Assembly (NCBI GenBank): GCA_017632935.1
Contig: JAGBQJ010000049.1
Coordinates: 1-64,000, forward strand
Source: Bacteroidales bacterium
GTDB taxonomy: Bacteria > Bacteroidota > Bacteroidia > Bacteroidales > F082
Length of the DNA: 64,000 nt
Direction: 5' to 3'
Shown here: in pieces, positions 7,025 through 56,234 of the stretch
Layout: each line of letters begins with the position of its first letter
How positions within the stretch are numbered: position 1 is the first letter of the stretch
Made by a program: the position numbers and the translations under genes
The notes under the pieces: generated by a model
What the model was told of the DNA's origin: nothing
What the model saw: only the letters and a program-made list of their open reading frames with translations
The model's database searches: none

Positions 7025-9148
7025 ATGAAGAAACTAACCTTTATCATTATGGCGGCAATGCTCGCCATTGTGGGTTGCGGCAAGAAAGCCGAAGATGTCA
7101 ATGTGGAGCTAGTCACCGTGGAAAACGAGGTGAAGACCGTTGGCTCGACCCAAGCGTATTTTGAATGCGAGTTCGAATACCTCAACGAAATCACCAAAGC
7201 CTTGTTGGTCTATTGCGAAGACGACCAATTGAAGTATGCCCAGACATCGAAACTCGAATATGTCGACGGCAAATGGGTGACTCAGATGAATTACCTTGAA
7301 AAGAGCACCAAGTATTATTACAGGTATGAGTTCTACAACGGCTACAACCTGATGTGGACCGAGATTTTCGACTTCACCACCACCGACAAGCAAGAGAAAC
7401 CAACAGTGGAAACCGTTGGCGCTGACAACATTACGATGACCACGGCTACAGTGGAAGGCAACGTCACCAACGATGGCGGATCTGCCGTTACAGATCGCGG
7501 TATCTGCTACAGCATCTACGAGAATCCCACCTTGTCGGATTCGGTGCGCTTGGCAGGAACAGGCATCGGCCGTTATTACTGCGAGATGAGCAACCTCACT
7601 AACGCCACTACCTACTATATCCGTGCCTTTGCCACCAACAGCGAAGGAACGAGCTTCGGCGACGTGATTACTATCCGTACCGTTGAGCATCCCCTGTTGG
7701 CTACAGTGACTACGGACGAAGTATCCGACATTACCATCAATACGGCAGTCTGCGGCGGCAACGTTATTAACGATGGTTATGCCGAGATTACCGAAAGAGG
7801 TATCTGCTACGCCACGCACCAAGAGCCTACCGTCTTTGACTATAAAGTGGCTGGCGGCGAAGGCATGGGATTGTTCCAATGCCGCATGTCGGGCTTGGAG
7901 ATGATGACCACCTACTATGTACGTGCCTACGCCAAAAACAGCGAGGGCTATGCCTACGGCAATGAGGTGAGCTTCATGACGGCCGACGAAACCTATCTGC
8001 CCGAGGTGATTACCCACGAGGTGACCGACTTCAACCATTTCTATGCCATTGGCGGCGGTGAAGTGGTGGCCAACGGTGGCCTTGACATTATCCAACGTGG
8101 TATATGCTGGGGCACTTCGCATAATCCCACCATCAATGGGAATAAGTTGACGGCAGGCACAGGAATGGGAGAGTTTGAATGCCGTATCACTTATTTGTAC
8201 GGAAACACTACCTATTATGTCCGTGCATTTGCAGCCAACGAAGCGGGCTTAAAGTATGGTAACGAAGTGACTTTTACCACCTTGCCGCACCCGAACACCG
8301 CTCCTGAAGGTGCAATTCCTGCCTTGTTCTCGGTGAGCGAGACGCAACAAGTATTCTTCTCGAAAGGCAATCTGCAATACCAAGCCTCCACAGGCACTTG
8401 GCGTTTTGCTGATCACCAATGGGATTATGTTGGAGGTACTTATTATGGAGAAGAATACGGAACAGTATATGAAAATGGAATAAAGTGTGATAATTCTTTG
8501 ATTTCACAAAGCTATTCTGGTTGGATTGACCTCTTTGGATGGGCCACTTCGGGTTGGAATAACAATAACCATTATTATAGGCCTTGGGATACTGAGAATA
8601 CGGGGTGGACTGTGGATGGATATGGCTATGGTTATTGGGATGGTGAGTATTCCAACTATCCAATGACTGGTGATTATGCCAATATGGACTGGGGCGTATA
8701 TAATCCTATTAGCAATGGAGGTAATCAAGCCGGATTATGGAGGACTTTGGGCTCTTCTGAGTTTGATTATATTATTAACGGACGTCAGAATGCTCAATAT
8801 AAAAAATCTATTGGAATCGTAAATGGAATTAAAGGATTGATTGTTCTTCCTGATTCTTGGATTCTTCCAGATGGTATACATTTCTTGGGAAGCGCAAGTG
8901 ATTATGAAACTAATAGTTATAATCTAGTTGAATGGGAAGTGATGGAGAATGCGGGTGCTTTATTCGTTGTGACGGAAACAGGATATAGAATGATGAATGA
9001 TTATTATTTTGGAAGTGCTATGTATTGGGCTAATTCGAATTATTATTCTTCCTCTCCTGGTATGGCTCATGGTTTTGGAGAGTCTGGTGGTAGCTACGCA
9101 GATTCTAGATATAAAGGTTATTCCGTCCGTCTCATCCAAAACTACTAA
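7025..9148 (+). CDS. Surface lipoprotein with tandem Fn3-like repeats and a C-terminal lectin-like domain
   Basis: The 707-residue protein has a lipoprotein signal with Cys18 in 'AIVGCGKK'. An initial beta domain (about 25-120) is followed by three tandem repeats of roughly 95 residues (about 125-220, 221-318, 319-420), each with 'GGxVxxxG', 'RGICY/W' and 'YYVRAFA.N..G' motifs, resembling fibronectin type III modules. The C-terminal part (about 425-707) starts 'FSVSETQQVFFSKGNLQYQ' and ends 'GYSVRLIQNY'; the next gene carries a paralogous copy. Base composition falls sharply at about 8420 (17 of 60 bases are G+C in 8461-8520), while the Fn3 region is much richer, so the C-terminal domain looks recently joined. 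Probable adhesin or glycan-binding role; ligand unknown. Confidence 0.65.
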   Translation: MKKLTFIIMAAMLAIVGCGKKAEDVNVELVTVENEVKTVGSTQAYFECEFEYLNEITKALLVYCEDDQLKYAQTSKLEYVDGKWVTQMNYLEKSTKYYYRYEFYNGYNLMWTEIFDFTTTDKQEKPTVETVGADNITMTTATVEGNVTNDGGSAVTDRGICYSIYENPTLSDSVRLAGTGIGRYYCEMSNLTNATTYYIRAFATNSEGTSFGDVITIRTVEHPLLATVTTDEVSDITINTAVCGGNVINDGYAEITERGICYATHQEPTVFDYKVAGGEGMGLFQCRMSGLEMMTTYYVRAYAKNSEGYAYGNEVSFMTADETYLPEVITHEVTDFNHFYAIGGGEVVANGGLDIIQRGICWGTSHNPTINGNKLTAGTGMGEFECRITYLYGNTTYYVRAFAANEAGLKYGNEVTFTTLPHPNTAPEGAIPALFSVSETQQVFFSKGNLQYQASTGTWRFADHQWDYVGGTYYGEEYGTVYENGIKCDNSLISQSYSGWIDLFGWATSGWNNNNHYYRPWDTENTGWTVDGYGYGYWDGEYSNYPMTGDYANMDWGVYNPISNGGNQAGLWRTLGSSEFDYIINGRQNAQYKKSIGIVNGIKGLIVLPDSWILPDGIHFLGSASDYETNSYNLVEWEVMENAGALFVVTETGYRMMNDYYFGSAMYWANSNYYSSSPGMAHGFGESGGSYADSRYKGYSVRLIQNY

Positions 9149-9210
9149 ACCAAACCTTGAAAGCCGAGAGGGAGCTACATCCCTCTTGGCTTTCCTAATA
9201 TGAAAGCAAA

Positions 9211-10062
9211 ATGAAGAAAAAAGGTTTAATCATTGGAATGTGCCTGCTGCTTACGGCGTTTGTAGCTTGTAATAAGGAAAATGGCAACGAAAACGGAGGC
9301 GGCAACGAAGGCAACGAGCAGATAACAGAAGGCTGCCTCTCAGGTGTTTTCTCGGTGGGCAACGGCAAGACGGTGCGCTTCTCTCAAGGTAACTTGCAGT
9401 ATCAGGCATCAACGGACACTTGGCGTTTTGCAGAGCAGCAATACGATTGCATCGGCAACACCAACAGCAATATCAGCCTGTTTTATCAAGGTTGGGTGGA
9501 CTTGTTCGGCTGGGGTACCAGCGGCTACAACGACATCAAGCCTTGGCTTATCAATTATGATATGGAGCCTGTAAGCATCACTGGCACGAAATACGACTGG
9601 GGCTTGAATAATGCCATCTCCAACGGCGGCAACAAGGCGGGCTTGTGGCGTCTGCTCACCATAGATGAATGGGGGTATTTAGTCAACAGCCGCAGCGGCT
9701 CGCGTTTTGCCAAGGCCACCGTTAACAACATGCGCGGCCTCTTGCTCCTTCCCGATGGATGGAGCACCGTCACATACGCCTTAAACGCCATCAATGACGC
9801 GGAAGGCGGATACGAAAGCAACTATATCTCTGCAACCGATTGGAGCAACTTGTTGGAAGCCAACGGTGTGGTGTTTTTGCCTTGCGCAGGCATCCGCGAA
9901 GGCACAAATGTCAGCTATGTCAACGGCTTTGGTCGCTATTGGTCCTCGACCTATATCGAGAAAGCTCGTAGCCTCTACTTCCTCCAAGGCGACGTACGCC
10001 CCGAAGGAGCCGATTACCACTGGGGGTTGGCTGTTAGGTTGGTGCAGGATGCAAACAAATAG
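9211..10062 (+). CDS. Lipoprotein, paralogue of the C-terminal domain of its neighbour
   Basis: This 283-residue lipoprotein has Cys20 in 'TAFVACNKE' and a short Gly/Asn/Glu-rich linker, then one domain homologous to the C-terminal 280 residues of the preceding protein. Shared blocks include 'GNLQYQAST.TWRFA', 'GW.DLFGW.TSG.N', 'NAISNGGN.AGLWR', 'RGL.LLPD.W' and a final 'VRLVQ'. The fold resembles the formylglycine/C-type-lectin-like domains abundant in gut Bacteroidales. Unlike the neighbour, this copy has normal G+C, so the two arose by old duplication or separate acquisition rather than by recent copying. Its substrate is unknown, and no retroelement is nearby. Confidence 0.6.
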   Translation: MKKKGLIIGMCLLLTAFVACNKENGNENGGGNEGNEQITEGCLSGVFSVGNGKTVRFSQGNLQYQASTDTWRFAEQQYDCIGNTNSNISLFYQGWVDLFGWGTSGYNDIKPWLINYDMEPVSITGTKYDWGLNNAISNGGNKAGLWRLLTIDEWGYLVNSRSGSRFAKATVNNMRGLLLLPDGWSTVTYALNAINDAEGGYESNYISATDWSNLLEANGVVFLPCAGIREGTNVSYVNGFGRYWSSTYIEKARSLYFLQGDVRPEGADYHWGLAVRLVQDANK

Positions 10063-10094: not shown

Positions 10095-13000
10095 ATGAAA
10101 AAATTATTTACCCTACTCTGCATGGTCCTGACTTGCGTTTATTGCCTCGCCCAGGACCGCAATAACGAAGACGAGGTGGTGAAGATTGACTGGTACAACC
10201 AGCACGCCACCAAAGAGGGCGAACTCATCGTGAAGTTTGCCGACCATACCATGCTGCGCCTGCAAAACGACGCGCGCGGCACGCTCCAAGCCACTGGCAT
10301 GAGCCGTGTGGATGCCCTGTTGCAGCGTTTCCCCGTGGCCAAGGCCGAACGCCTTTGCCCCAATGATAACCCCAACCGCCAACTGAAGACTTCCAAGTCC
10401 TACAACGGCCCCGACGTGGTAGAACGCGACTTGAGCCGCCTCTGCCGCTTCATCATGCAAGACCCCAGGCAGACTTACGAAATGATTGAAGCCTTGAAAG
10501 AATTGGACGAAGTGGAATTTGCTGAGCCTAACTACATGGCATTTGCTCTGGGAGAGGTCGATAATGCTTTTACATGTTTTGATGCTTTGAGCGGCAAGAG
10601 CGTCCCCGGCGGCGACGATCCCAAGAGTGGTGGCTACTTCAATACCTGGGCCTACACCCACGAGCCGATGTATCCCTTGCAATGGGGCCTTCAGGCGGTG
10701 AATCTTCCGCAGCTTTGGGCCTCCGACAACAACACCAACACTGATCGCGCTGTGATTGCCATCCTTGATACTGGCGTTGACATTGACCACCCCGACCTCG
10801 CCGCCAATATCTGGACCAACCCAGGCGAAAATGAAAACGGCTACGACGACGACAACAATGGCTTTGCCGATGACCTCCACGGCTGGGATTTCGTAAACCA
10901 GACCGCCGACATGCACGACTTTAACAGCCACGGCACCCACTGTGCAGGTATCGCTGCTGCTGTTGGTGATAACCATATTGGCATGACTGGTGCCAACCCT
11001 ATGGCCTACATTATGCCCGTGGCCGTGCTGCAGAGCAACGGTACTGGTGATATTGCCACTGTGATACAAGGCATTAACTACGCCAAAAACAATGGGGCTG
11101 ATGTGATTAGCATGAGTTTCGGTACTTATAGCTATTCTATTGCCTTGGAGCAAGCCCTTGCCCAAGCCTACCAAAACAGCGTGTTGGTGGCTGCTTCGGG
11201 TAATGATGGAAAACATATTGATCCGAGATGTTGCACTGATCTTACTCATTCCCAATGGGATCGTCCCATGTTCCCTGGGGCATTAACCTTCGTGTTTGGC
11301 GTGGAAGCCACACAGCAATTGCCGGGATTGTGCGGATATACTACTTGTTGGTCTAACATTGATTGTGATGGCCCCTCTTTCTCTCAATATGGAGAAGAGC
11401 AACTATACAATTACGAATTGCAAGCCCCTGGTGCGGGCGTCTATAGTGCCGTGCCAAATGGTAATTACCGCGCTTACAGCGGCACTTCCATGGCTGCTCC
11501 GTTGGTGGCGGGCGGCATCTCAGCCTTGCTTCACGCCAAGACCTATGCTTCGCAGGAAATGCTATGGGGAGACTTGATCAACACCGCCGGCAATCACGTG
11601 AACTTTAAGGCTTGTTTTGATGCTGGAGATGCTCCTGCACAACTGCAATTCGTAACTTTTGAAATGAACGACACCATTGCTGGTGACGGTGACTATCGTC
11701 CCGATGCTGGTGAAACCATTGATCTCTATCCCACCTTGCGTAGTACATGGGGCGCTACCGACAACATTTTGATGTGGCTGACCGTGGATGAATTTGAAAA
11801 CCCTGATATTGTGACATTCTTGGACACAGAACCAGTAGAGTTCGGTTGGAGCTTATCTGCATATGCCAAAAGCAAAGCTGTTAATCCCTTAAGAATAACA
11901 ATCAATCCTAATTGTATGGATGGACGTAACATCGAATTACTATTCCATGCATCTATATCGAACTCTTTAAATGAATTTGTTTTCCCGTTTTCGATAAATG
12001 TTGAAAGTGGAGTTGAACTGGGTGGAATAATTGATGACACGTTGACTTTATCTTCAAATTATCAATATATTGTTACAAGTAATCTTGGAATAACAAGTAA
12101 TGGCTTGCTAATAATAGAGCCAGGAACTACAATAAAATTCAAGGATCAGATGCAACTATCTAATTCTGGTAGAATAATAGCTGTAGGAGAACCTGATAAT
12201 ATGATTACATTTACAAAAACTGACCTTGGGACAGGTTGGAGAGGAATGTTATTAAATCGATATGATACTCTTGATTATTGTAGAATTGAATACATTATAC
12301 CTAATGGTAATAATGCGGCTGTTTCGGGAGCATATATTAAGAATTCAATAATCTCAGATTGTAAAACACTGTCGAATGGAGTTGTAAGGAATGCTCATGT
12401 GGCCAATAGTAATATTTTGAGAAACACATTCTACCAGTATGTAATTAGTAACATCGCGACTAACACTTTATATGGGAATTGTTACAATAATATTACAAGT
12501 AATCGTGATGTTGCGGGTGGTGGATATTGTGCTGGAGCTTTTCCTGTTGTTGGCTGTCAGGATATGTATTGTTATAACAATATTTTTTCGAATACTCCTA
12601 GTGATATGTATGCAATGAGTACAATGCCATTAGTTGTTCATATGAATTTATTACCATATTTGGGGAGTGGGGATGTTGATATTGTTCATGGTCATGTGTT
12701 TGATATATATAATCATGGCAATGATCCATATCTTGAAATATATAATACATTTGCAAGTGTTGATCTGTCAAATATTACCGAACAGCCGTTTTCAAATGCT
12801 CATGGTATAGTTTGGAAAATCAAAGTCAACGGCTACGATGCCCAAGATGAATTTGAGCAATTACCACCATTAGGCTGTGGTACTCATGAATTCAAGGTGT
12901 ATTTCAACCGTCCCATGGATACTTCCATTACACCTATGGTGGCTATGGGCGTGCGTCCGCCATATACCCAACATGCCATAGCAGAGAATGGCTCTTGGAA

Positions 13001-14306
13001 TGATGAAGGTACGATCTACACCGCTTACCTCACCATCAACGGCACTACGGCTACGGACGGCCTCAACCGCATCTATGTGGCCAACGCCAAGGACAATGAG
13101 CATTTCGAGATACCCATTGAGAATATGCGTTTCAATGTGCAAGTTTCCTCGGCCGGTTCATTAAGCAATGAGTTTATGGCCACACCTGGCCTTGGCAAGG
13201 TGGATCTGGAATGGAACAACAATGAAGTGGATTTCGAGGATTTTTTGGGCTACAATATGTATCGCTATGTGTATGATTCGGTGCTTACCAATTACCACTA
13301 CCAATCGGGCGTGGGCTATGTTTACGATACGGTTTGGATGCCTGTGGATTCCATCCAACTGAATACTTCGCTTATCCAAGACACTTTGTTTACTGATTAT
13401 GACGTGGTGCCTGGTCAGCGTTACTATTACTATTATAAGGTATTGCGCACCAACCTCACCGAGAGCGATGCTTCGCTCACCGTCACCACCGTGCCGCTCA
13501 CTTCGGTGCCTGGCGATGCCAACGGCAGCATGGCGGTCGATGTGGCTGACGTGGTGAGCCTCGTCAGCTATCTCACCAACGGCAACCCCCAGCCCTTCAT
13601 CTTCGAGGCGGCAGACGTGAATGGCGATGGCACCATCGACATTTTGGACATCGTGGGAGTCATCAATATCATCACTAACCGAGGCGGCCTTCCTGATGCC
13701 AAGCCTGTGGCCACGGCCTACTACAGCATCGAGGACGGCATCCTCTTCGTGGATACACCAGTCGAGTTAGGCGGCGTGCAGTTTGTGTTCAACAATATGG
13801 AAGGCCAATCGTTGGAAACCTTGCAAGCCTTGGATGGCTTCGAGCAGGTGAAGGCCGACGTGAGCGATGGCACGCTCTTCATGGCCTACAGCATGAGCGG
13901 CAAGCGCATTCCTGCTGGCAAGCACGCCTTGCTCCGCATTGGCGAAGGCCAAATCAACAGTGTAGCCTTCTCAGACCCCGAAGGCCACAATGTGCTGGCT
14001 ATCTTCCAAGGCACAGGCGTGGAGGAGTACGAAACCCTCTTCCTCGAGCAGCCTTACCCGAATCCCTTCAACGGCAACCTCACCATCCCCTTCATCATCG
14101 GCGACGAGCGGGCCAACAATGTGGTCTTCACCGTCACCAACATGATGGGCCAGGTGGTCTCGGTCATCGAACTCGGCTCACGTAGTAGAGGCGAGTATAA
14201 GTATGAATGGTCGCCCTCAGCCAACATGGCCACCGGCATCTACACGGTCTCCATGCAGGTCAACGGTCGTAATGTTCAACACGCTAAAGTGGTCTACGTA
14301 AAATGA
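10095..14306 (+). CDS. T9SS-exported subtilisin-like protease with dockerin
   Basis: A secreted serine protease of family S8, 1403 residues. After a signal peptide ('YCLAQ') and a prodomain (about 25-150) comes the catalytic domain (about 215-480), with Asp225 in 'AILDTGVDI', His279 in 'NSHGTHCAG' and Ser465 in 'SGTSMAAP', so the triad is intact. Next are a beta-sandwich, a right-handed beta-helix-like region (about 650-840, strongly A+T-rich DNA), an Fn3-like domain (about 1016-1130), a type I dockerin (about 1136-1196) with both calcium loops complete ('DANGSMAVDVAD', 'DVNGDGTIDILD'), a cohesin-like module (about 1200-1310) and a T9SS sorting domain (about 1320-1403, beginning 'PYPNPFNGNL'). 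The stop overlaps the next start as ATGA. The substrate cannot be told from sequence. Confidence 0.88.
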   Translation: MKKLFTLLCMVLTCVYCLAQDRNNEDEVVKIDWYNQHATKEGELIVKFADHTMLRLQNDARGTLQATGMSRVDALLQRFPVAKAERLCPNDNPNRQLKTSKSYNGPDVVERDLSRLCRFIMQDPRQTYEMIEALKELDEVEFAEPNYMAFALGEVDNAFTCFDALSGKSVPGGDDPKSGGYFNTWAYTHEPMYPLQWGLQAVNLPQLWASDNNTNTDRAVIAILDTGVDIDHPDLAANIWTNPGENENGYDDDNNGFADDLHGWDFVNQTADMHDFNSHGTHCAGIAAAVGDNHIGMTGANPMAYIMPVAVLQSNGTGDIATVIQGINYAKNNGADVISMSFGTYSYSIALEQALAQAYQNSVLVAASGNDGKHIDPRCCTDLTHSQWDRPMFPGALTFVFGVEATQQLPGLCGYTTCWSNIDCDGPSFSQYGEEQLYNYELQAPGAGVYSAVPNGNYRAYSGTSMAAPLVAGGISALLHAKTYASQEMLWGDLINTAGNHVNFKACFDAGDAPAQLQFVTFEMNDTIAGDGDYRPDAGETIDLYPTLRSTWGATDNILMWLTVDEFENPDIVTFLDTEPVEFGWSLSAYAKSKAVNPLRITINPNCMDGRNIELLFHASISNSLNEFVFPFSINVESGVELGGIIDDTLTLSSNYQYIVTSNLGITSNGLLIIEPGTTIKFKDQMQLSNSGRIIAVGEPDNMITFTKTDLGTGWRGMLLNRYDTLDYCRIEYIIPNGNNAAVSGAYIKNSIISDCKTLSNGVVRNAHVANSNILRNTFYQYVISNIATNTLYGNCYNNITSNRDVAGGGYCAGAFPVVGCQDMYCYNNIFSNTPSDMYAMSTMPLVVHMNLLPYLGSGDVDIVHGHVFDIYNHGNDPYLEIYNTFASVDLSNITEQPFSNAHGIVWKIKVNGYDAQDEFEQLPPLGCGTHEFKVYFNRPMDTSITPMVAMGVRPPYTQHAIAENGSWNDEGTIYTAYLTINGTTATDGLNRIYVANAKDNEHFEIPIENMRFNVQVSSAGSLSNEFMATPGLGKVDLEWNNNEVDFEDFLGYNMYRYVYDSVLTNYHYQSGVGYVYDTVWMPVDSIQLNTSLIQDTLFTDYDVVPGQRYYYYYKVLRTNLTESDASLTVTTVPLTSVPGDANGSMAVDVADVVSLVSYLTNGNPQPFIFEAADVNGDGTIDILDIVGVINIITNRGGLPDAKPVATAYYSIEDGILFVDTPVELGGVQFVFNNMEGQSLETLQALDGFEQVKADVSDGTLFMAYSMSGKRIPAGKHALLRIGEGQINSVAFSDPEGHNVLAIFQGTGVEEYETLFLEQPYPNPFNGNLTIPFIIGDERANNVVFTVTNMMGQVVSVIELGSRSRGEYKYEWSPSANMATGIYTVSMQVNGRNVQHAKVVYVK

Positions 14307-17300
14307 AACGCCTAGTATTAATCCTAATAATACTGCTCGGTGGGCTTGCGGCGAGGGCCGACAACATCGTTGTGGTCTCTTCGGCAAGCGGTCATCCGCA
14401 AGACGAAGTGACACTTCAAGTGTCCCTCGCTAACACCGACGCAGCTGTGGCTTTCCAAGCGGAAATTCCCTTGGGTAGCCAGCTGACCTACGTGGCAGGT
14501 TCCGTGGCTCTCAACCCTGGGCGCATCACCGACCATCAGGTGAGCGCAGCAGTGGTCAACGGCAGCCTGCGCATCTATGCCTATTCGCTAAACCTCACGC
14601 CTTTTGTGGGCAGCGAAGGTAACTTGCTCAGCTTTACCTTGAGACTCAAGAACGAGCCGGGCGACTTTGCCTTGGAACTGAACGAGACTAAGCTATCAGA
14701 TGCTTCAGGGAATGCCTTGCCTGTGACCACTAGCAACGGCATGGTAACTATCCTTTCGCCAAAGTTGCAAATCAACACGACAAGCATCAACTTTGGTCAT
14801 GTACCGATTTGGAGCGAGTACACTCAAAACGCTAGTGTGACAAATGTTGGTAACGAGCCGCTTACCATCACGGCCATCAACTTCAGTGATGCCGTGTTTA
14901 GCTGCCCGAGTTTCATGGAAACCACTTTGCAGCCAGGCAATAGCACGAGCTTCGCTTTCAAGTTTGCGCCGATGGTGAAAGGAGCGGTAACCGCCACGGC
15001 TACTGTCGCTTCCAACTCCATATTAGGCAACGGTATCATCAACTTGCAGGCCGATCCCTTCGCTGTTAACGAGATACACATTGGCTACGTCACGGGTTAT
15101 TGCGACAGTATCGTTGCGCTACCCATCAGCATGAACAACATGGAGGAAATCATCGGCTTGCAGATTGAGGCGTATCTCAATGACGCTTTGGAGTTTATAG
15201 ATTTCACCTTGAGCGACCGCAAGACTGACCATGTCGCGACGGGCATCGTCAGCGGAACTACTCTGCGACTGATGGCCTACTCGCCGTCTGGCTCTGCTTT
15301 TACTGGCGATGACGGTGTGATTGGTACGGTACGATTCCGCTTGCATGGGCAGTATGGCAACTACTATCTGAACCCCAGCAAAGCGGTGTTGGCCGATGCC
15401 AACGGTGAGAATGCCTTGTCTAACAAATACCAAGGCTATGTCACCGTCCGTAGCCCGAGAATCAACGGCAACAGCAGCTTAAGTTTCGGCTCGTCACCAG
15501 TCACCGAAACTGTCACCCGCGAGTATGTGGTACGCAACCAGGGTAACGCATCCATGCGGATAGACCAAGTTGTTTTTGACCAAACGGATTTTTCTGTTAT
15601 CGAGACCTTCCCGATAGTAGTGGAACAAGGAGCCACCACAATTTTGCATGTAAGCTACAACCGTGAACAAAAAGGCAATTATAGTGCCTTGATGAAGATT
15701 TACAGCAACGACCCGCAGAATGGCTTGAAGAACGTGACTTTATCAGGTAGCCGCTATGAGCCGAATAGTATCAGTCTAGTCACTGAAACAGTCTCAGCTG
15801 AAACGGTTACGCTTTCTGTGGACATGAGCAACTATTCTGGAATTGTGGCTTTACAAGCTGATTTTCAGTATCCTTACCAAGAGTTTTCATTGCAGCCCTC
15901 TGATTTTCAGTTGATGGGACGTTTTGCCAACCATTCAATTTATGCTCTGCCATCCAATGATTCAACATTTCGTATCCTTGTGCTTTCTATGCAGAATGAT
16001 CCAGTCGAAGGACACGATGGAGCGATACTGAAAATACTTCTGCATCCAATAGGAACACCTTTAGAGGAATATACGGCTACACTTTCCGAAATCGTACTCA
16101 GCGAAGCGGAAGGCGTAAATGTGTTCTCTGGCGAAGAAACATCAACGACTTTCTCTCTCACTACCACCCAAACAGCAGCAATGGCTTCTGGATGGAACTG
16201 GTGGTCCACTTACATTGAACAAAGCAATCTTGACGGACTGACAATACTTGAGAACAGCCTAGGACACAATGGCTTGACCATTAAGTCACAGAACGAGTTC
16301 GTGGACAACTACTACCAATATATGGACTACGATTATTGGTACGGCTCTTTGGAAGAAATCAACAACGAACAAGGGTATTTGGTAAATGTCACGAATGGTT
16401 GTGGCATCGCGATGGTGGGTGTCCCAGCCAATCCGGAAAATCATACAATTACTATCCAACCTAACTGGAACTGGATTGGCTATCCCGTTAATATACAACA
16501 AACTGTAGGAACAGCCATGGGAGGTTTTATCTCTGCGGGTGATGATGTGATCAAGAGTCAGACGGACTATGCCTTCTACTATGAGGGTTATGGATGGTAT
16601 CCCGATGATTTTATGCTAACTCCTGGCGCGGGATATAAATACCATTCCAACGCTTCGGAAAACAAAACTCTGACCTATTCCCGTGGGACTAGGGAAGTGA
16701 TTGACCATAAAATGCCAACTGACCAGTTTTTGGTATCCGATAGTCACATCTACGCTAACAATCTCAACGTGACTGCCATTGTAGTTGTTGATGATGTGGA
16801 GCAATATGACAAGCCTCTTATGTTGGGCGCTTTTGTCAATGGAATGTGCCGAGGTTGTACTAAACTTAGGTATTTTGAACCACTTGACCGTTATTATGCC
16901 ATGCTGACAGTTGCAGGTGAAAATGGTGAGAAAATCAAATTCGGCTATATGGATGCAGAAAACGGTAAGTGCAAAATGATTGCCGACGAAAGTGTCTCTT
17001 TTGTAACAGACGCCATCATCGGTAAGCTTGACAAACCTTTCGAGATACATTTCAACACAGATAACTCTGTTGACTCGAAACCTTTGTCCATTTATCCCAA
17101 TCCGATTGGTAAAAATATGTTATTCTGCATGGACATTCCGCAGATTGAAACCATAACAGAATTAACCATCACCAATGTATTTGGTGCTGTGGTGCGACTT
17201 GAGAGCGGATTAGTGGATACAAGAAGCATTAATGGGCCAATGTCTTCTGGCGTATATTTGGTCGAAGTTGTTACCTTGTCGGGCAACATCTATCATGGAA

Positions 17301-17317
17301 AACTGATTGTGAAATAG
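14303..17317 (+). CDS. T9SS-exported multi-cohesin-like surface protein
   Basis: The 1004-residue protein has a signal peptide and alternating modules. Cohesin-like modules lie at about 20-150, 254-383 and 488-615; each has the cohesin pattern of a '...D.VTL.V...N' start, a central 'G..G.L....LR/L' strand and a 'LSDASGNAL' or 'LADANGENAL' loop. Between them are two beta-sandwich domains of the HYDIN or choice-of-anchor-D type ('NTTSINFGHV', 'NSSLSFGSSP'). A tryptophan-rich module ('GWNWWSTYIE', from about 628) and another beta module (about 815-915, shared with the next gene) precede a T9SS sorting domain ('SIYPNPIG', about 928-1004). Translationally coupled to the dockerin-bearing subtilase, it is a plausible docking scaffold. 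The cohesin call is by pattern only. Confidence 0.7.
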   Translation: MKRLVLILIILLGGLAARADNIVVVSSASGHPQDEVTLQVSLANTDAAVAFQAEIPLGSQLTYVAGSVALNPGRITDHQVSAAVVNGSLRIYAYSLNLTPFVGSEGNLLSFTLRLKNEPGDFALELNETKLSDASGNALPVTTSNGMVTILSPKLQINTTSINFGHVPIWSEYTQNASVTNVGNEPLTITAINFSDAVFSCPSFMETTLQPGNSTSFAFKFAPMVKGAVTATATVASNSILGNGIINLQADPFAVNEIHIGYVTGYCDSIVALPISMNNMEEIIGLQIEAYLNDALEFIDFTLSDRKTDHVATGIVSGTTLRLMAYSPSGSAFTGDDGVIGTVRFRLHGQYGNYYLNPSKAVLADANGENALSNKYQGYVTVRSPRINGNSSLSFGSSPVTETVTREYVVRNQGNASMRIDQVVFDQTDFSVIETFPIVVEQGATTILHVSYNREQKGNYSALMKIYSNDPQNGLKNVTLSGSRYEPNSISLVTETVSAETVTLSVDMSNYSGIVALQADFQYPYQEFSLQPSDFQLMGRFANHSIYALPSNDSTFRILVLSMQNDPVEGHDGAILKILLHPIGTPLEEYTATLSEIVLSEAEGVNVFSGEETSTTFSLTTTQTAAMASGWNWWSTYIEQSNLDGLTILENSLGHNGLTIKSQNEFVDNYYQYMDYDYWYGSLEEINNEQGYLVNVTNGCGIAMVGVPANPENHTITIQPNWNWIGYPVNIQQTVGTAMGGFISAGDDVIKSQTDYAFYYEGYGWYPDDFMLTPGAGYKYHSNASENKTLTYSRGTREVIDHKMPTDQFLVSDSHIYANNLNVTAIVVVDDVEQYDKPLMLGAFVNGMCRGCTKLRYFEPLDRYYAMLTVAGENGEKIKFGYMDAENGKCKMIADESVSFVTDAIIGKLDKPFEIHFNTDNSVDSKPLSIYPNPIGKNMLFCMDIPQIETITELTITNVFGAVVRLESGLVDTRSINGPMSSGVYLVEVVTLSGNIYHGKLIVK

Positions 17318-17330
17318 AAATGAAAAAAAT

Positions 17331-18860
17331 ATGAAAAAGGTATTATTGATTTTGGCAAGTGTGCTCATCATGGGAATGACCATGGCACAACAAGGAAACC
17401 ATTGGTCGCCAATTCCTGGTACTCAGTACAGTATGACCGTAAAAGGTATCATTGTAATTGATGGAGTGGTGCAAAGTAACAATATGTTGGAAATCGGCGC
17501 ATTTTGCGGAGATGAATGTCGTGGTAGTCGTAAGGCTTCGCTTTTTCCTCCAACTGGCGATTATATCGTCACTTTGAACATCGTCAGCAACGTGGTCAGC
17601 GGAGAGATTATCACCTTCCGTATCTATGACCATAGTATCCAACAGGAGCTTGTTTTGGAAAGCCTCAGTACACTGACTTTCGTTGACAATTCTAATGCTG
17701 GTGATCCAACAAATTGGTTTCAGATAGCATTTGCCACGCCCTCTGTTACTTACACCCTGCCCATTACAGGTTACGGCAACAATACTGGCAACTACTACCT
17801 CATCGCTCCGCCGATAGATAATGTCGACCCATCCGAAATCGAAGGCATGACCACGGGTGACTTTGACCTTTATTATTTCGACCAAAGCGAGGAACTGGAA
17901 TGGCGCAACTACAAGGTCAACCCTTTTAACCTTGAATCAGGTAAAGGCTATCTCTATGCCCACAAGACCAATGTCACCCTTACTTTTACTGGTATGCCAT
18001 ACAATGGTGATGGAAAGGTGACGCTGAGAAAGACAGGTGGCCTGTCTTTCGAAGGCTGGAATCTTGTCGGCAATCCCTTCCCACAAGTCGCCACCATTGA
18101 CCGCGATTGCTATGTCATGAACGCCAATGGCACGGAAATCATTGCCAGCAAAACTAGGATTGTCAACCCTATGCAAGGCGTTTTCGTGATGGCCGCCTCA
18201 GACAACGAAAAGATGACCTTTGTTCCTCAAGGCAACACTGACACAAGGGCTAAAATCGTCCTCAATGTGTATAAGCAACGTGCAAGTACTATCGATCGGG
18301 CCATTATCCGATTCGAAGGCAACAGCACGCTGCCAAAGTTAATGCTCGACCCAGACAACACAAAACTCTACATACCGCAAGATGGCACCGACTACGCTGT
18401 GGCCGTCGTTGGCAACAATGGTATCACACCTGTCAGTTTCAAAGCACAAGAAGACGGTACCTATACCCTGAGTGTCGATGTCACCAGCCTTGATTTAGAC
18501 TATCTCCATCTTTTTGACAACAAAACTGGAACAGATGTCGACTTGCTACAAGTCCCGTCATACACTTTTGATGCTCAAACGACTGATTATGCAGAACGTT
18601 TCAATCTAACGTATGCAACGACTACAGGGGTCAGCGAGGGTGATAAACCTTTTGCCTATTATGCTGATGGGGAAATTCATCTCTTGGTTGAGACGTTTCA
18701 GGAAACGTCTCTACAGATTGTGGATATGCAAGGACGTGTGATCATGGTTTGTAGAGACGGTGTGCACACCATCTCTACCAGCGGAATGCCATCAGGCATA
18801 TATGTATTGCGCCTTGTCAACGGTACAGAAACAAAAGCCCAAAAAATAATAATCGAATAA
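17331..18860 (+). CDS. T9SS-exported protein, function unknown
   Basis: The 509-residue protein has a signal peptide ('GMTMAQQGN') and an N-terminal beta module (about 25-145, 'MLEIGAFCGDECRGSRKA') that matches the penultimate module of the preceding protein ('MLGAFVNGMCRGCTK'). A second region (about 150-430) contains 'GYLYAHKTNVTLTFTG' and 'GWNLVGNPFPQ', resembling the Trp-rich module next door. The C-terminal approximately 75 residues form a T9SS sorting domain ending 'KAQKIIIE'. Two palindromic repeats, at 18690-18711 and 18751-18778, lie inside the DNA for this sorting domain and keep it in frame. It starts 13 bases after the previous stop and belongs to the same operon. No catalytic motif is seen. 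Confidence 0.7.
   Translation: MKKVLLILASVLIMGMTMAQQGNHWSPIPGTQYSMTVKGIIVIDGVVQSNNMLEIGAFCGDECRGSRKASLFPPTGDYIVTLNIVSNVVSGEIITFRIYDHSIQQELVLESLSTLTFVDNSNAGDPTNWFQIAFATPSVTYTLPITGYGNNTGNYYLIAPPIDNVDPSEIEGMTTGDFDLYYFDQSEELEWRNYKVNPFNLESGKGYLYAHKTNVTLTFTGMPYNGDGKVTLRKTGGLSFEGWNLVGNPFPQVATIDRDCYVMNANGTEIIASKTRIVNPMQGVFVMAASDNEKMTFVPQGNTDTRAKIVLNVYKQRASTIDRAIIRFEGNSTLPKLMLDPDNTKLYIPQDGTDYAVAVVGNNGITPVSFKAQEDGTYTLSVDVTSLDLDYLHLFDNKTGTDVDLLQVPSYTFDAQTTDYAERFNLTYATTTGVSEGDKPFAYYADGEIHLLVETFQETSLQIVDMQGRVIMVCRDGVHTISTSGMPSGIYVLRLVNGTETKAQKIIIE
18690..18711. repeat. Palindrome of the GAGACG type inside coding sequence
   Basis: GAGACGTTTC at 18690-18699 and GAAACGTCTC at 18702-18711 form a perfect 10-bp inverted repeat around AG, followed by TACAG. 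It shares the GTAGAGACG-type end with 46784-46813 and lies within the T9SS sorting-domain codons. Confidence 0.8.
18751..18778. repeat. Second GTAGAGACG palindrome inside the same gene
   Basis: GTAGAGA at 18751-18757 pairs with TCTCTAC at 18772-18778, and GGTGTG/CACACC pairs inside, with one mismatch (C18758 against A18771). It is 39 bases after the first palindrome, in the same coding frame. Confidence 0.8.
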
Positions 18861-18871
18861 TACTGCATACG

Positions 18872-19171
18872 ATGAAAAAGATAGCATTAACGTTCGCCAT
18901 TGTTCTCGGCTTAGGCATGACAACTTTCGCTGGTCACAAAGAAGGCGGCCTGTTTAAACGTGGCGTCAGCGACGAAAAATACTACGGCATGGGCTATTTT
19001 AACAATGGCAGTCTAATCTTTAACCGTGAAAACACGACGCCTTTGCTTCCCGAACATAACGATCAATACAACAACGATGCCGATGAGACCACACCGCTTG
19101 GCACAGGTATCACCCTGCTTTTGGGTCTTGGTGGCGCTTATTTAGTCGCCAAGAAACGTAAAGAAGAATAA
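18872..19171 (+). CDS. Small exported protein with PLGTG-TM-KKRK tail
   Basis: The 99-residue protein has an N-terminal signal peptide ('GLGMTTFAGHK'), a short polar middle, and a C-terminal tripartite tail: the motif 'TPLGTG', a 15-residue hydrophobic glycine-rich segment ('LLLGLGGAYL'), and a basic end 'KKRKEE'. This layout resembles sorting tails recognised by exosortase- or sortase-like enzymes, though no such enzyme is in the window, and it could equally be a simple membrane anchor. It begins 11 bases after the preceding stop and closes the subtilase operon. I recognise no named family. The start is ATG 18872. Confidence 0.6.
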   Translation: MKKIALTFAIVLGLGMTTFAGHKEGGLFKRGVSDEKYYGMGYFNNGSLIFNRENTTPLLPEHNDQYNNDADETTPLGTGITLLLGLGGAYLVAKKRKEE

Positions 19172-48392: not shown

Positions 48393-51300
48393 ATGAGTAC
48401 AAAACAGATGAAAAAAATCTGCAGCATCGGCCTGTTGGCTGTGATGATGCTGCTTTGCTTCTTGCCCTCTTGCGGCAAGAAGGGAACAGGTGTGCAGAAC
48501 GCCTTCATTGAGCGTATCCAGCCCATCAATGAGGCCTTGCTGCCGCTGTTGGACAGCTACACCTCGGGTGTGATTGCCGCTGGCGAGCCCATCGTGGTGA
48601 GCTTCAAGAGCCCCGAGACGATGACAGCGAAGTATGGCGAGCCTATTTCCGCCAAAGCCTTCCAGTTCACGCCTGCCCTGAAAGGTAAGGCCTACTGGGT
48701 CGACGAAACCACCGTCGGCTTCCAGTACGACAACATCGACAAGGATCAGAGCTACGTTTGCAAGTTCCGCGTCTCCGACTTCGTGGACTGCGGCTCCGAC
48801 CAGATGCTTGAGTTCGGCTTCGGCGTGCGCCGCCAGAACTTCAGCCTCGTGGCCCAGCAGCCTATCTGCACATCGAACGAGACGATGGACTACAACCTGC
48901 GCATCGCCTTTGCCACTCCCGTCGACCAGGAGGAAGCCATCAAACTGTTCGATGATGCCTTCCGCAAGAGCCATCCCGTGGAGATGACCTATGCCGGAAA
49001 CAACATCTACGACTTCCTGGTTCAGAACTTCGAGCGCAAGAACGACAACTACGACGTGCATGTCGTCCTCGACGGCAAGGCCGTGGACTCGAAAGCCAAG
49101 ATGGAACGCGACCTGACAGTCTATGCCAAAAGCGTCTTCATCCCGTTGACTTTCGACGTCGACAAGAGCGCCGACCACGCCACGCTGTTCTTCAGCCAGC
49201 CGCTGAATGAATCGCAAAACCTTACGGGTTTCATCACCACCCACAGAAACCTTGGCTATAAGGCCGACGTCAAGGGGAACAAGATTGACTTCTATTTCGA
49301 CAAGAGCAACCTCTACAGATACCAGTTGGACGAGCTGACGATTGGCGTGAACAGCGGCATCCGCTCCGCCAACGGCATGTTACTCCAGGAGGACTATGAA
49401 TATGCTTTGGATTTGACTGAGGTGCAGCCACAGGTGCGCTGGACCGACGAGGGCGTCATCATCCCGAATGTGGATGAGACCACCGTCTATTTCGATGCCA
49501 TCTGCCTCAACGGGGTTACGCTGCGCATCGTCCGCATCTTCGACGACAACATCCTTTCGTTCCTGCAGGACAACGAGCTGACCGAGACCTACAACGTGCG
49601 CAAGGCGGGCCGCTTGGAGAAGAAAGTGCGTCTGGCCATCGACAATCCTTATCCCACCCAGTGGAAGACCTTCCCCATCGTGCTCTCCGATTACATCAAA
49701 GTGGAGCCAGGAGCCATGTATCAGCTGAGCCTCAACTTCGGTCCCGCCGACTACACCTTCGCCTCCGACGAGATGAAGACCGCCCTGACCGACAACAACG
49801 ACGAGAAGGAAGCCAGCTATTGGGACGGCGAGGCCTACGACTATAAGGAATACCGTTACGAAGGTGATTGGGGCGACCCCAACGGCTACTATTACTATAA
49901 CTATGTGGAGAAGAAGAAGAACATCGTCGTCAGTGACCTCGCCGTGACTGCCAAAATGGGTCGCAACGACTTGGTGGACGTCTTTGTTTTCAACATCTCC
50001 AATGCCCAACCCGCTTCGGGTGCCGAGGTGACGGCTTACAACTACCAGCGTCAGGAGCTGTGCAAGGGCACCGTCGACGGCAAAGGTCATGTGCAACTGC
50101 AATGCGCCAACCGTCCCGCCTTTGTGGTGGCTTCCGACAGAAAAGGCAGCAAGTCGGTCATCAAGCTGAGCGATGGCAACGCCTTGTCATACAGTCGCTT
50201 CAATGTTTCGGGTGAGCCCGTCGAGAAAGGCGTGACGGCCTTCGCCTACGCCAACCGTGGCGTGTGGCGTCCCGGCGACGAGCTGCAACTCAATCTCATG
50301 CTCAATGACATGGAATCATCGGTGCCGGATGACTATCCCGTCGTCCTCGAAGTGATTGACGCCAACGGTCGTCTCTATGCCAAGCAAGTGAATACCAAGC
50401 CTGTCAACGATATCTATTGCTTCACGGTGAAGACCAATGTTTCGGACGAGACGGGTCTGTGGACGGCTCGCTTCAAGGTGGGCACCAGCACCATCACCAA
50501 GAATCTCCGTGTGGAGACCGTGAAACCCAACCGTTTGGAAATCAAGATGGATTTGCCTGAAGTGGTGAGTCTGGCGCGCAACGAGCGTGTCGGCTTGAAC
50601 GCGAAATGGCTCAACGGCATGAAAGCCACCAACATGAAGGCTGAAGTCGACCTGATGCTTCGCGGCGGCGAGACTTCGTTCAAGAACTTTGACAAGTACA
50701 GCTTCGAGAACGAGACCAAAGGCTTTGATCCCCAAGAGGTTTCGCTCTTCAGCGGCCAGTTGGATGCCGAAGGCAACACGAGCGTGGGCTTCGGTCCTTT
50801 GGAGGATGTGTATGCCTCGCAGATGATGAACGCCACATACGTGGTGAAGGTCTTTGAGCAGGGTGGCGACTTCAGCATCGCCTCGTTCACTTCGAAGATT
50901 TCGCCTTACTCGCGTTATGTGGGCGTCGAGTTGCCCAAGACTTCGTCGAAATACGGCAGCTACTACGACACGGAAACGGATTGGAAGTTCAACATCGCGG
51001 TGGTCAACGAAAACGGCACGGCCTACAACTCCTCAGTCGCGCTGGAATATGCCCTCTACAAACTAGATTACTACTGGTGGTGGTCGAGCGAGGACTATTA
51101 CACACTGCAACGCTACGCCTCGGGTACCTACAAAGCACCATACGAGAATGGCAACCTGACATGCAACGGCACCACCTCGGTGACCTTCAACATCCCGAAC
51201 GAAAAGTGGGGTAGCTATCTCCTCGTCGTCAACGACAAGCAAGGCGGTCACACCTTCGCCAAGGTCATCAACTTTGACTGGGGCTATGGCCACTCTTCAA

Positions 51301-53903: not shown

Positions 53904-53918
53904 ACTTCGAATGAAACG

Positions 53919-56234
53919 ATGAAATGGCTCGCAAGACATAAGAAAGCGAAAATCGCGATTTTGGCTCTTGCGGGCCTTTTCATTGCCTTTTTGTGCATTC
54001 CCGTGCCGAAGTTCGACAAGCCTTATTCGACGGTGTTGACGGCGAAAAACGGCGAGCTGCTCGGCGCGAAGATTGCAGACGACGGGCAATGGCGCTTCCC
54101 TGCTACCAACGACTATTCCCCGAAATACGTCGCCTGCCTCTTGGAATATGAAGACCGCTGGTTTTTCTTCCATCCAGGCTTCAACCCTGTGGCTTTCGTG
54201 AAGTCTTTCATCGACAACATGAAGGCGGGAGAGGTGGTCAGGGGCGGCAGTACCATCTCGATGCAGGTGGTGCGCATGTCGCGCGATAACCCGCCCCGCA
54301 CATACGCCGAGAAACTTTGGGAGGTCATCTTGGCCATGCGCTTGGAACTGCATTACTCCAAACGATCCATCCTTAATATGTATGCCGCCAATGCGCCCTT
54401 TGGAGGCAACGTGGTAGGTATCGACGCAGCTGCGTGGCGCTATTTCCACACCACGCCCGACAACCTGTCATGGGGCGAGGCAGCTACCCTTGCCGTGCTG
54501 CCCAATTCGCCGGCACTTATCCACCCAGGCCGTTCTCGCGACCGTTTGGAGCAGAAACGTGATGAGTTGCTGCGGCGCATGCCCAATGCCAAGGCATACA
54601 TCCCAAGACGGTTTCACGCGCCTAAACTCTCGGAGGAAGACGCAGAGCTGGCCATGATGGAGAACATCCCTGACAAGCCCTTCGACATGCCGATGTTGGC
54701 TTACCATTATCTCAGCGACCAGGACAAACACCATCACGGACAGCAAATCTCATCCACCCTTGATTATAATTTGCAACGTTCAGTGTTGGACATCATGCAC
54801 CGCCATCACGAGACCAATGTGATGAACAATATCGACAATGCAGCAGTGTATGTCGTTGATTATCTGAATGATGAAATCGTGGCCTATGTGGGCAACAACA
54901 GCGACGCCTCCGATGCGGCCATGGTCGACATGGTGAAGGCGCAACGCTCGACAGGTAGTATCCTGAAACCCTTCCTCTTTGCTGCTATGCTGGACGAGGG
55001 CACCTTGTTGCCCGAGATGATCCTGCCCGATGTGCCGATGAGTCTGGCGGGCTTCACGCCGAAGAACTACAGTGGTGAGTATTGGGGCGCGGTGCCTGCC
55101 GACAAAGCCTTGCAGAATTCACTCAACGCACCTTTCGTGCATCTGCTGCGTGAATACGGACAGCAGCGTTTCCACGGCTTGCTGAAGCAGCTGCCGCTCA
55201 AGGGCATCGTCTTCGATGCAGAGCATTACGGTCTGTCGCTCATCGTGGGTGGCGGCGAAGCATCACTTTATGACATCTCCAACGCCTACGCCAAGATGGG
55301 ACGCAAGCTGGCCGTGCATGTCAACGAGAGCTATGACGCGAAGGTGGACGAGAAGGAGTCTCCTTTCTCGGCTGAAGCCATCGCCGAGACCTTTAACGTG
55401 ATGAAAGGGTTGACGCGTCCCACGAGCCAGATAGGGTGGGGCGGTTTTGCTTCCTCGAAGCAGGTGGCTTGGAAGACGGGCACCAGCTTCGGTTTCAAGG
55501 ATGCCTGGGCGGTGGGCCTCACCGATCGTTATGTGGTGGGTGTCTGGGTGGGCAACTCCGACGGTGAGGGTCGTCCTGGACTGACGGGTGTGGGCGTGGC
55601 GGCACCTGTTCTGTTTGATGTGGTCGGCAAACTAAATGACAGCTACCGCTATCCCGCCAATACATCGGAGAGCATAGAGATTGAGGTCTGTGCCGAGTCG
55701 GGTTATCCCAAGTCGGAATACTGCCCGCATACCAAGAAAATCCGTGTGCCTAACGTGGAAAATCAGACGGGCGTGTGTCCCTATCATAAAAAGGTGTTTT
55801 TGGACGAGACGCGGCAGTTCCAGGTGCGTCCCGACTGCTATCCCGTCGACCAGAAATGCTATGAAGTGTATTATGTGTTGCCCCCTGTGATGGAGTGGTT
55901 TTATAAGAAGCATTCGCCTTTGTTCCGGCCTTTGCCTGCCTTCTATCCGGGCTGTGGTACGGCACATCCTGACGAGGTGATGGCTTTCGTCTATCCCAAG
56001 AGCGATGCCAAGGTGAGCATCCCCATCGGTATCCGAGGCGACCGCCAGCAGGTCATCTTCGAGATTGCCCACCGTAACCCGCAGAAGACTATCTATTGGA
56101 ATCTGAACGATGAGTTTCTCGGTGCTACCCGCCTCAACCACCAGATGCCCATTGACGTGGAGAAAGGCACCTACCGTCTCCGTTGCGTGGACGAAGACGG
56201 TGTGGAGTTGAATCGGAAGATAGTAGTGCAATAG
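53919..56234 (+). CDS. pbpC: Penicillin-binding protein 1C
   Basis: PbpC polymerises and may cross-link peptidoglycan strands. The 771-residue inner-membrane protein has one N-terminal transmembrane segment ('IAILALAGLFIAFLCIP'), the glycosyltransferase domain (about 60-220) with Glu78 in 'LEYEDRWFFFHPG' and 'GGSTISMQVVRM', the transpeptidase domain (about 280-560) with Ser347 and Lys350 in 'STGSILKPF' and 'KTGT' at 519-522, and the C-terminal PbpC-specific domain (about 680-771). It starts 16 bases after the alpha-2-macroglobulin gene; the pairing is conserved in Gram-negative bacteria and links wall repair with protease defence. Confidence 0.95.
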   Translation: MKWLARHKKAKIAILALAGLFIAFLCIPVPKFDKPYSTVLTAKNGELLGAKIADDGQWRFPATNDYSPKYVACLLEYEDRWFFFHPGFNPVAFVKSFIDNMKAGEVVRGGSTISMQVVRMSRDNPPRTYAEKLWEVILAMRLELHYSKRSILNMYAANAPFGGNVVGIDAAAWRYFHTTPDNLSWGEAATLAVLPNSPALIHPGRSRDRLEQKRDELLRRMPNAKAYIPRRFHAPKLSEEDAELAMMENIPDKPFDMPMLAYHYLSDQDKHHHGQQISSTLDYNLQRSVLDIMHRHHETNVMNNIDNAAVYVVDYLNDEIVAYVGNNSDASDAAMVDMVKAQRSTGSILKPFLFAAMLDEGTLLPEMILPDVPMSLAGFTPKNYSGEYWGAVPADKALQNSLNAPFVHLLREYGQQRFHGLLKQLPLKGIVFDAEHYGLSLIVGGGEASLYDISNAYAKMGRKLAVHVNESYDAKVDEKESPFSAEAIAETFNVMKGLTRPTSQIGWGGFASSKQVAWKTGTSFGFKDAWAVGLTDRYVVGVWVGNSDGEGRPGLTGVGVAAPVLFDVVGKLNDSYRYPANTSESIEIEVCAESGYPKSEYCPHTKKIRVPNVENQTGVCPYHKKVFLDETRQFQVRPDCYPVDQKCYEVYYVLPPVMEWFYKKHSPLFRPLPAFYPGCGTAHPDEVMAFVYPKSDAKVSIPIGIRGDRQQVIFEIAHRNPQKTIYWNLNDEFLGATRLNHQMPIDVEKGTYRLRCVDEDGVELNRKIVVQ

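Follow-up and report, generated by a model that had tools for sequence, protein, structure and literature searches.

Introduction

The nearest descriptions of the gene pair reported here are of two complexes, both of them predictions. The pair lies on a 64,000-nucleotide stretch of DNA from a Bacteroidales bacterium (assembly GCA_017632935.1, contig JAGBQJ010000049.1, positions 1 to 64,000 of the forward strand; the whole stretch is hereafter called the window), and encodes a secreted subtilase equipped with a dockerin (P1) and a scaffold with three cohesins (P2). One of the two complexes is that of Candidatus Stygibacter (Cloacimonadota), predicted to be a cellulosome-like assembly for the degradation of proteins and other polymers (PMC8542988). 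According to the available text of that report, it resembles P1-P2 in having (i) dockerins on S8 and C25 (gingipain-like) peptidases, and (ii) a non-catalytic multi-cohesin scaffold with a C-terminal domain of the type IX secretion system (T9SS) type. It differs in its phylum, in its scaffold of 3,755 amino acids (aa), which carries carbohydrate-binding modules (CBMs; CBM2/CBM3), and in the presence of glycoside hydrolases among the cargo; the description of the complex in that text contains no two-gene unit. The other is the planctosome of Nemodlikiaceae (Planctomycetes), a hypothetical cohesin-dockerin complex for polypeptide degradation (PMC6461901), which contains peptidases of families M12B and M14 together with an adaptor and a lamin-tail anchoring protein, and for which the available text describes neither T9SS nor a subtilase.

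Dockerin and cohesin modules are also combined with protease components in clostridial cellulosomes: an S8 peptidase of C. thermocellum with a double dockerin and a cysteine peptidase of R. flavefaciens with an X-dockerin have been reported, and in the available text the proteases are accessory parts of fibre-degrading complexes (PMC12484212). In P1-P2, on the other hand, the protease is the sole dockerin protein found, no CBM was recognised on the scaffold and both proteins carry T9SS sorting domains. A canonical cellulosome has a scaffoldin with repeated cohesins, and so does P2, with three; it also has several different dockerin enzymes, whereas one dockerin was found in the genome studied here, and it has carbohydrate-active cargo and a scaffoldin CBM, whereas P1 is an S8 peptidase and the Pfam matches of P1 and P2 at E 1 include no CBM family. 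By analogy, P1-P2 would work like a cellulosome but lacks two of its defining features, the variety of dockerin enzymes and the carbohydrate cargo.

For the Bacteroidetes themselves, the available parts of earlier reports describe dockerins without recognisable cohesins in rumen metagenome-assembled genomes, which may either not serve a bona fide cellulosome or have cohesins too distant to be recognised (PMC7260996), and call the dockerin role in rumen Bacteroidetes undefined (PMC7480376). This orphan-dockerin puzzle is not universal, since cohesin domains were reported for certain bins of Bacteroidetes and Firmicutes; several of these, among them the dockerin-rich Bacteroidetes bin 136, have two to four cohesins in tandem (PMC6071333). 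The available text of these three reports neither ties a class of dockerin genes to cohesin genes next to them nor names a protease pair, and we found no description of a subtilase/triple-cohesin pair in Bacteroidales in the portion of the open-access literature covered by our search.

Modular structure of P1 and P2

The genes of P1 and P2 overlap by four bases (ATGA), as the initial annotation, made from the sequence alone, had indicated; its coordinates and gene order were recovered on re-derivation. The pair is composed of the following features:

10095..14306, forward strand: P1, 1403 aa, secreted subtilase with dockerin, module X and T9SS sorting domain
10749..11600, forward strand: P1 subtilase (S8) domain, aa 219-502 (Peptidase_S8, E 3.4e-44)
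13509..13673, forward strand: P1 type I dockerin, aa 1139-1193, with two calcium loops (PF00404, Dockerin_1, E 1.1e-7)
13704..14009, forward strand: P1 module X, directly after the dockerin, a diverged cohesin relative by profile-profile comparison
14055..14294, forward strand: P1 T9SS type A sorting domain, aa 1321-1400 (TIGR04183, 26.1 bits, cut-off 23)
14303..17317, forward strand: P2, 1004 aa, triple-cohesin scaffold with T9SS sorting domain
14360..14755, forward strand: P2 cohesin 1 (PF00963, 19.4 bits alone, fragment 14357-14758; 156.5 bits with profile A2, which was trained on it)
14759..15019, forward strand: P2 ASH/choice-of-anchor-D domain 1 (domain profile matches)
15065..15457, forward strand: P2 cohesin 2 (PF00963, 19.5 bits alone, fragment 15065-15412)
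15458..15760, forward strand: P2 ASH/choice-of-anchor-D domain 2 (domain profile matches)
15761..16138, forward strand: P2 cohesin 3 (PF00963, 15.5 bits alone, fragment 15740-16135), the most diverged of the three
16139..16717, forward strand: P2 C-terminal region, shared by many exported proteins of the genus, with weaker recurrences in a few other genera
17090..17314, forward strand: P2 T9SS type A sorting domain (TIGR04183, 31.4 bits, cut-off 23)

Profile comparisons support the identification of the three beta modules of P2 as cohesins. Whole P2 matched the Cohesin family PF00963 with E 1.5e-9 and 38.6 bits, above the cut-off of 24.1, under which each of the modules fell when scored singly. 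The mean pairwise identity is 0.36 for cohesin 1, 0.40 for cohesin 2 and 0.27 for cohesin 3. When the P2 cohesin profile A2 was compared with PDB sequences (E up to 10), 22 were matched: 16 named cohesin or scaffoldin, four NagJ and two unrelated. The NagJ construct 2w1n is by its description a cohesin plus FnIII, and hence 20 of the 22 hold cohesins; the eight best (E up to 0.011; best 5n5p_A, 4.8e-5) are all cohesins. The three-module segments of 23 orthologues matched the ASH family in every case and PF00963 at E 3e-5 in 16, so that to call Pfam blind to these cohesins would be too strong. Profile A2 was built from 28 modules of five P2-type genes and the two larger scaffold genes of genome G038.

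In P2 the order is cohesin-ASH-cohesin-ASH-cohesin, followed by a C-terminal region and the sorting domain. The C-terminal part of P2 (16139-17317) is common across exported proteins of the genus, and the triple-cohesin core therefore seems to have been grafted onto a lineage-specific end.

P1 consists of a signal-like start (by eye), the subtilase domain, a middle region of approx. 520 aa, the dockerin, module X and the sorting domain. The catalytic triad D225/H281/S465 was located by motif within the S8 domain. The dockerin scored 32.4 bits with PF00404 (cut-off 22.9) and has two F-hand loops, in which the calcium ligand positions are conserved across the aligned rows. Position 10 of repeat 1 is V or I, and position 11 of repeat 2 is L, in 25/25 of these rows; we take positions 10 and 11 to be the recognition positions of type I dockerins. 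The profile of the dockerin end matched dockerins and gingipain sorting domains.

The initial annotation had thus been right in assigning to the subtilase an intact triad, a complete type I dockerin and a sorting domain, and to the second gene three cohesin-like modules and a sorting domain of its own.

Dockerins and cohesins of the source genome

The source assembly consists of 62 contigs and is 92 per cent complete. PF00404 found one dockerin in it at E 0.001, that of P1. A profile of the dockerin-X-sorting-domain end (25 rows; E up to 1) gave 53 matches, of which one was full; the other 52 begin at position 157 or later, i.e. at the end of X or in the sorting domain. PF00963 gave no match in this genome at E 0.001, and the cohesin profile detected, at E 1e-6, three modules, all of them in P2. 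P1 is thus the only dockerin protein, and P2 the only source of clear cohesins, found in the genome, and with one dockerin found by two profiles the idea of a large cellulosome was rejected. The T9SS apparatus was judged by its component SprA/Sov, which is present (SprA_N, E 7.7e-165).

Conservation of the gene pair

P1 was searched for at E 1e-30 in a set of 60 genomes (own included) and was found in seven: its own, three of the same genus (G002, G005 and G025) and three of other families (G038, G056 and G058). In all three same-genus relatives P2 adjoins P1. The other same-genus rows match the C-terminal part of P2, one of those listed (in G004) back to residue 442. Outside the genus, a triple-cohesin gene of G056 adjoins a dockerin-X-sorting-domain protein with a different body, and in G038 a dockerin-X-sorting-domain protein is followed by scaffolds with eight and five cohesins.

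Co-occurrence was surveyed in 295 genomes of the order, with cohesins counted at E 1e-6 and dockerins counted among the matches listed. Dockerins were present in at least 19 genomes, cohesins in 22 and both in 16 (Fisher one-sided 6.5e-19, the genomes being related and not independent). The profiles used contain rows from G000, G038, G056 and G058; without these four, 15 of 291 genomes had a dockerin among the matches listed, 19 had cohesins and 13 had both.

A second set of loci comprised the best 80 of 149 relatives, picked by the dockerin-X-sorting-domain end and not by cohesins. It holds 30 subtilase-type dockerin genes, defined by a match to the catalytic or middle region of P1; X was detected by profile in 24 of them. 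Five lie at a contig edge, with 176 nucleotides (nt) or less remaining (L083, L090, L094, L098 and L144). All of the other 25 have a same-strand cohesin gene in the same run, within 378 nt in 23 cases; the remaining two, in L093, are separated from it by sibling dockerin subtilases. The partner has three cohesins in 22/25 cases, the exceptions being L076 (two before the contig end), L092 (one, then a three-cohesin gene) and L105 (four). In L077 the cohesin gene is upstream of the dockerin gene. Among the other dockerin genes, 22/76 have a cohesin gene within 500 nt (contig edges kept, dockerin-bearing scaffolds included). The distances of P1 and P2 are correlated over 23 pairs (r 0.79, with 0/2000 permutations as high), a correlation also expected from shared ancestry alone. 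The survey of gene order called for by the initial annotation thus shows that the neighbour is kept beside every evaluable gene, with one genus outside this set lacking the cohesin gene.

These loci are partly dependent: L079 and L081 are close, as are L072 and L074, and L071 is apparently the G025 locus; by coordinates, G352, G331, G339 and G342 are the same genomes as G038, G083, G306 and G286, respectively. One record bearing the label Cloacimonadota contributed L091, where a triple-cohesin gene comes immediately after a P1-type gene that is truncated by the start of the contig. A Bacteroidales-type gene pair, with 44 per cent identity at the dockerin end, is also carried by L078, a record labelled Clostridium sp.; since the pair is of Bacteroidales type, this label may be wrong. 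Four loci from records labelled Zixiibacteriota (L123, L138, L139 and L149) have dockerin genes and, by the profile used, no cohesin gene in the stretch.

Thirty-two genomes behind dockerin loci of the second set were scanned with the cohesin profile A5 and with PF00963. A5 matched in 28 of them (274 matches in total) and PF00963 in 25, over the cut-off in 23 (76 matches); a match to one or the other was present in 31, G360 alone having neither. Among the 17 genomes that gave A5 no row, A5 matched in 13 and PF00963 in 11. The A5 counts do not all represent scaffold sockets, because this profile contains cohesin-like modules that follow dockerins. Three genomes (G330, G335 and G358) have PF00963 matches unseen by A5, so that there is more than one cohesin type.

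Larger variants and a lineage without the scaffold

Several loci are variations on the two-gene plan. In L093, three tandem dockerin subtilases are followed by one triple-cohesin gene. In six Prevotella-type loci (L085-L088, L097 and L105) the layout has two tiers, as in L097:6599-14045: after a dockerin subtilase comes a triple-cohesin gene that itself bears a dockerin (weak in L088), and after this a gene whose cohesins number one in five of the loci and two in L086. Six dockerin-X genes stand in a row in G083 (L165 and L166; the first is cut at the contig start), and the scaffold gene after them has at least ten cohesins and runs to the contig end.

The cargo varies as well. Of the five dockerin-X proteins of G083 that were scanned, two are C25 (gingipain-like) and one is S8. 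G038 has a C25 dockerin protein on a contig other than that of its scaffolds, and in G173 an M6-type dockerin protein adjoins a cohesin gene. Not all of it is peptidase: in some further dockerin proteins, nothing was recognised beyond repeats of the fn3, carboxypeptidase-regulatory, CUB or InlB type.

G058 and G172, which belong to one genus, gave no cohesin match in the order survey at E 1e-6. A hidden, diverged scaffold was considered and rejected: the gene in the scaffold position of G058 is a GH92 gene, and the start of the G172 gene is near-identical to it. At position 11, the dockerins of these two genomes carry E in repeat 1 and T in repeat 2, whereas the 25 aligned rows have A/L/S/N/I in the former repeat and always L in the latter. 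Judged from the residues, these changes would fit a loss of constraint, as a single event. P1 can therefore persist alone.

Module X of P1

The cohesin-like module that the initial annotation had placed on the subtilase is, by profile-profile comparison, a diverged relative of cohesins. In hhalign, X matched the cohesin profile A5 with a probability of 96.1 (E 3.1e-9), against 0.1 for a reversed control, and it matched the single P2 cohesins with probabilities of 86.8 to 97.1, the highest being that of cohesin 3. The latter comparison is the cleaner one, because A5 includes some modules that follow dockerins. Controls against cohesin profiles (reversed X, ASH domain 1 and the sorting domain) gave 7.1 or less; the earliest comparison of X with cohesins had given 84.

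X as an ordinary Pfam cohesin was not supported: the window copy has no Pfam match, and none of 25 rows matched Cohesin at E 0.1. Against the PDB, a profile of X matched one unrelated protein family weakly and nothing else. The predicted structure of the dockerin-X-sorting-domain region (pLDDT 90.2, pTM 0.65) had a cohesin-FnIII tandem as its top Foldseek match (E 1.3e-8, with low TM-scores of 0.22 and 0.25), and many FnIII and Ig proteins ranked below it. The P2 cohesins are longer than X, and the R..H motif that they have in common is, by eye, missing from it. It is more likely that X supports or caps the dockerin than that it acts as a fourth socket.

Genes surrounding the pair

Two further genes follow the pair, with gaps of 13 nt (P2-P3) and 11 nt (P3-P4):

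17331..18860, forward strand: P3, exported protein with T9SS sorting domain, accessory
18872..19171, forward strand: P4, 99 aa, genus-specific multicopy family, accessory

The initial annotation had described them as two more exported proteins, each within 15 bases of its predecessor. The spacing was correct and P3 has a sorting domain (37.1 bits, cut-off 23), but P4 is not a recognised T9SS substrate. By eye, the start of P4 is signal-like, and at its C-terminus a hydrophobic stretch is followed by a basic tail; in NCBIfam, LPXTG_anchor is the one family that P4 matched near a cut-off (16.2 bits, cut-off 15.9). Its family consists of proteins of approx. 100 aa that are signal-like at the start and have, at the C-terminus, a PLGTG-hydrophobic-basic tail like a sorting signal; the family was matched in 12 of 13 same-genus genomes (own included) and in none of eight others, with ten matches in its own genome.

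P3 and P4 lie downstream of the pair in two of the three other same-genus loci fetched, and neither was matched beside the pair outside the genus, among the loci listed. They are lineage-specific extras outside the conserved unit, and were rejected as members of the complex. In L075, the pair is followed by a 93-aa gene whose tail is, by eye, similar to that of P4.

Upstream of P1, at a distance of 32 nt, there are two lipoprotein-like genes (7025-10062) with a common C-terminal domain by eye; neither was matched in the stretches fetched around P1 of G002, G005 and G025. Elsewhere in the window (48393-56234), a gene for a bacterial alpha-2-macroglobulin (protease trap) adjoins that of a bifunctional penicillin-binding protein.

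Discussion

The modules of P1 and P2, the pairing of their genes and its conservation suggest that the two proteins probably form a minimal, protease-only, cellulosome-like surface complex. Both would enter the periplasm by means of their signal peptides and would cross the outer membrane through the T9SS, as their C-terminal sorting domains and the presence of SprA/Sov suggest. At the cell surface, the calcium-loaded dockerin of P1 would plug into the cohesins of P2, so that as many as three molecules of this one subtilase could sit on a single scaffold, and the clustered subtilases would digest proteins together. Such a complex would be homotypic, i.e. one enzyme multiplied and not many mixed, because the sole dockerin found is that of P1 and the sole clear cohesins found are those of P2.

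A cellulosome-like surface complex built around a protease and exported by the T9SS had already been put forward in the initial annotation. The modules scored in the profile searches and the neighbour proved to be conserved, which speaks for the proposal; the unit, however, is a dedicated protease pair and not a fibre-degrading cellulosome, given one dockerin found in the genome. T9SS export is supported in the genus of the window, but the sorting domains are not recognised in every relative, and it is only in the window, where they exceed the cut-off, that the link to the T9SS is firm.

Several observations weigh against the proposed complex. The predicted structure of the three-cohesin part of P2 (pLDDT 93.3, pTM 0.56) has long Ig/ASH chains as its first Foldseek matches, with a cohesin dyad at rank 50; the structure comparison is not decisive for the cohesin fold, because multi-Ig chains made up most of the Foldseek result. 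Within the genus of the window the pair occurs patchily, P1 being found in 3/35 other genomes at E 1e-30, and the P2 frame of G002 stops at 795 aa, ahead of any sorting domain. A dockerin match without cohesins occurs in G058, G172 and G087 (the first two, of one genus, keep a P1 orthologue with dockerin and X, and have GH92 in the scaffold position), and cohesins without a listed dockerin match occur in G112, G170, G177, G267, G270 and G326. On ten scaffolds of other lineages, the sorting domain is over the cut-off in three and under it in two (that of L093 passes the Pfam cut-off), and it is recognised in none of six Prevotella-type proteins. More generally, genes with another joint function could likewise be adjacent and co-inherited.

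One such alternative is that the dockerin is satisfied within P1, binding X in cis or, in trans, linking P1 copies into chains, with P2 as a co-expressed surface protein that has another partner. We consider this unlikely, although it can draw on the presence of X, itself a cohesin relative, after the dockerin in 24 of the 30 subtilase-type genes, on the confident model of the dockerin-X-sorting-domain region and on the retention of dockerin and X without a scaffold in G058 and G172. The shortness of X and its apparent lack of the R..H motif argue against it, and it leaves unexplained both the cohesin gene beside each of the 25 evaluable subtilase-type genes and the ten or more cohesins beside the six dockerin genes of G083. 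Somewhat less probable still is that the modules of P2 are cohesin-fold domains for adhesion or structure, which bind no dockerin, and that P1 processes P2 or other surface proteins, this being why the pair is linked. Cohesin domains do occur in TMEM132 adhesion molecules, as the available text of PMC6030884 indicates, and both the weak Pfam matches of single P2 modules and the resemblance of the three-cohesin model to long Ig/ASH chains would agree with such a role. Under this explanation, however, it would be coincidence that the partner regularly bears a dockerin, that L093 has a three-plus-three layout, that a large scaffold lies by six dockerin genes in G083 and that the Prevotella-type loci have two tiers. 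For the TMEM132 molecules, we know of no dockerin partner.

The idea that the two genes are part of a true multi-enzyme cellulosome, the rest of which lies in missing parts of the genome, is very improbable in our opinion. The assembly is fragmented into 62 contigs and 92 per cent complete, and some relatives have many dockerin genes; yet two different profiles detected one dockerin in the whole assembly, and P1 is at the centre of all four P1-P2 loci of the genus, that of the window included.

Returning to the protease complex, a broader proposal can be made, which we advance tentatively and regard as falling somewhat short of an even chance: that a homotypic peptidosome, in which one T9SS-exported subtilase is carried on a dedicated triple-cohesin scaffold, is the basic dockerin-cohesin system of Bacteroidales, that it was the source of the larger gingipain/subtilase scaffolds and of the two-tier Prevotella-type assemblies, and that it accounts for a defined share of the orphan dockerins.

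To the question of what such dockerins bind, the locus gives an answer for one class: the putative partner gene is usually the next. If the binding holds, proteins would be digested at the surface of these bacteria by a clustered-enzyme machine of a kind considered chiefly in connection with plant fibre. With its two genes, the unit is of a size that allows reconstitution and structure solution.

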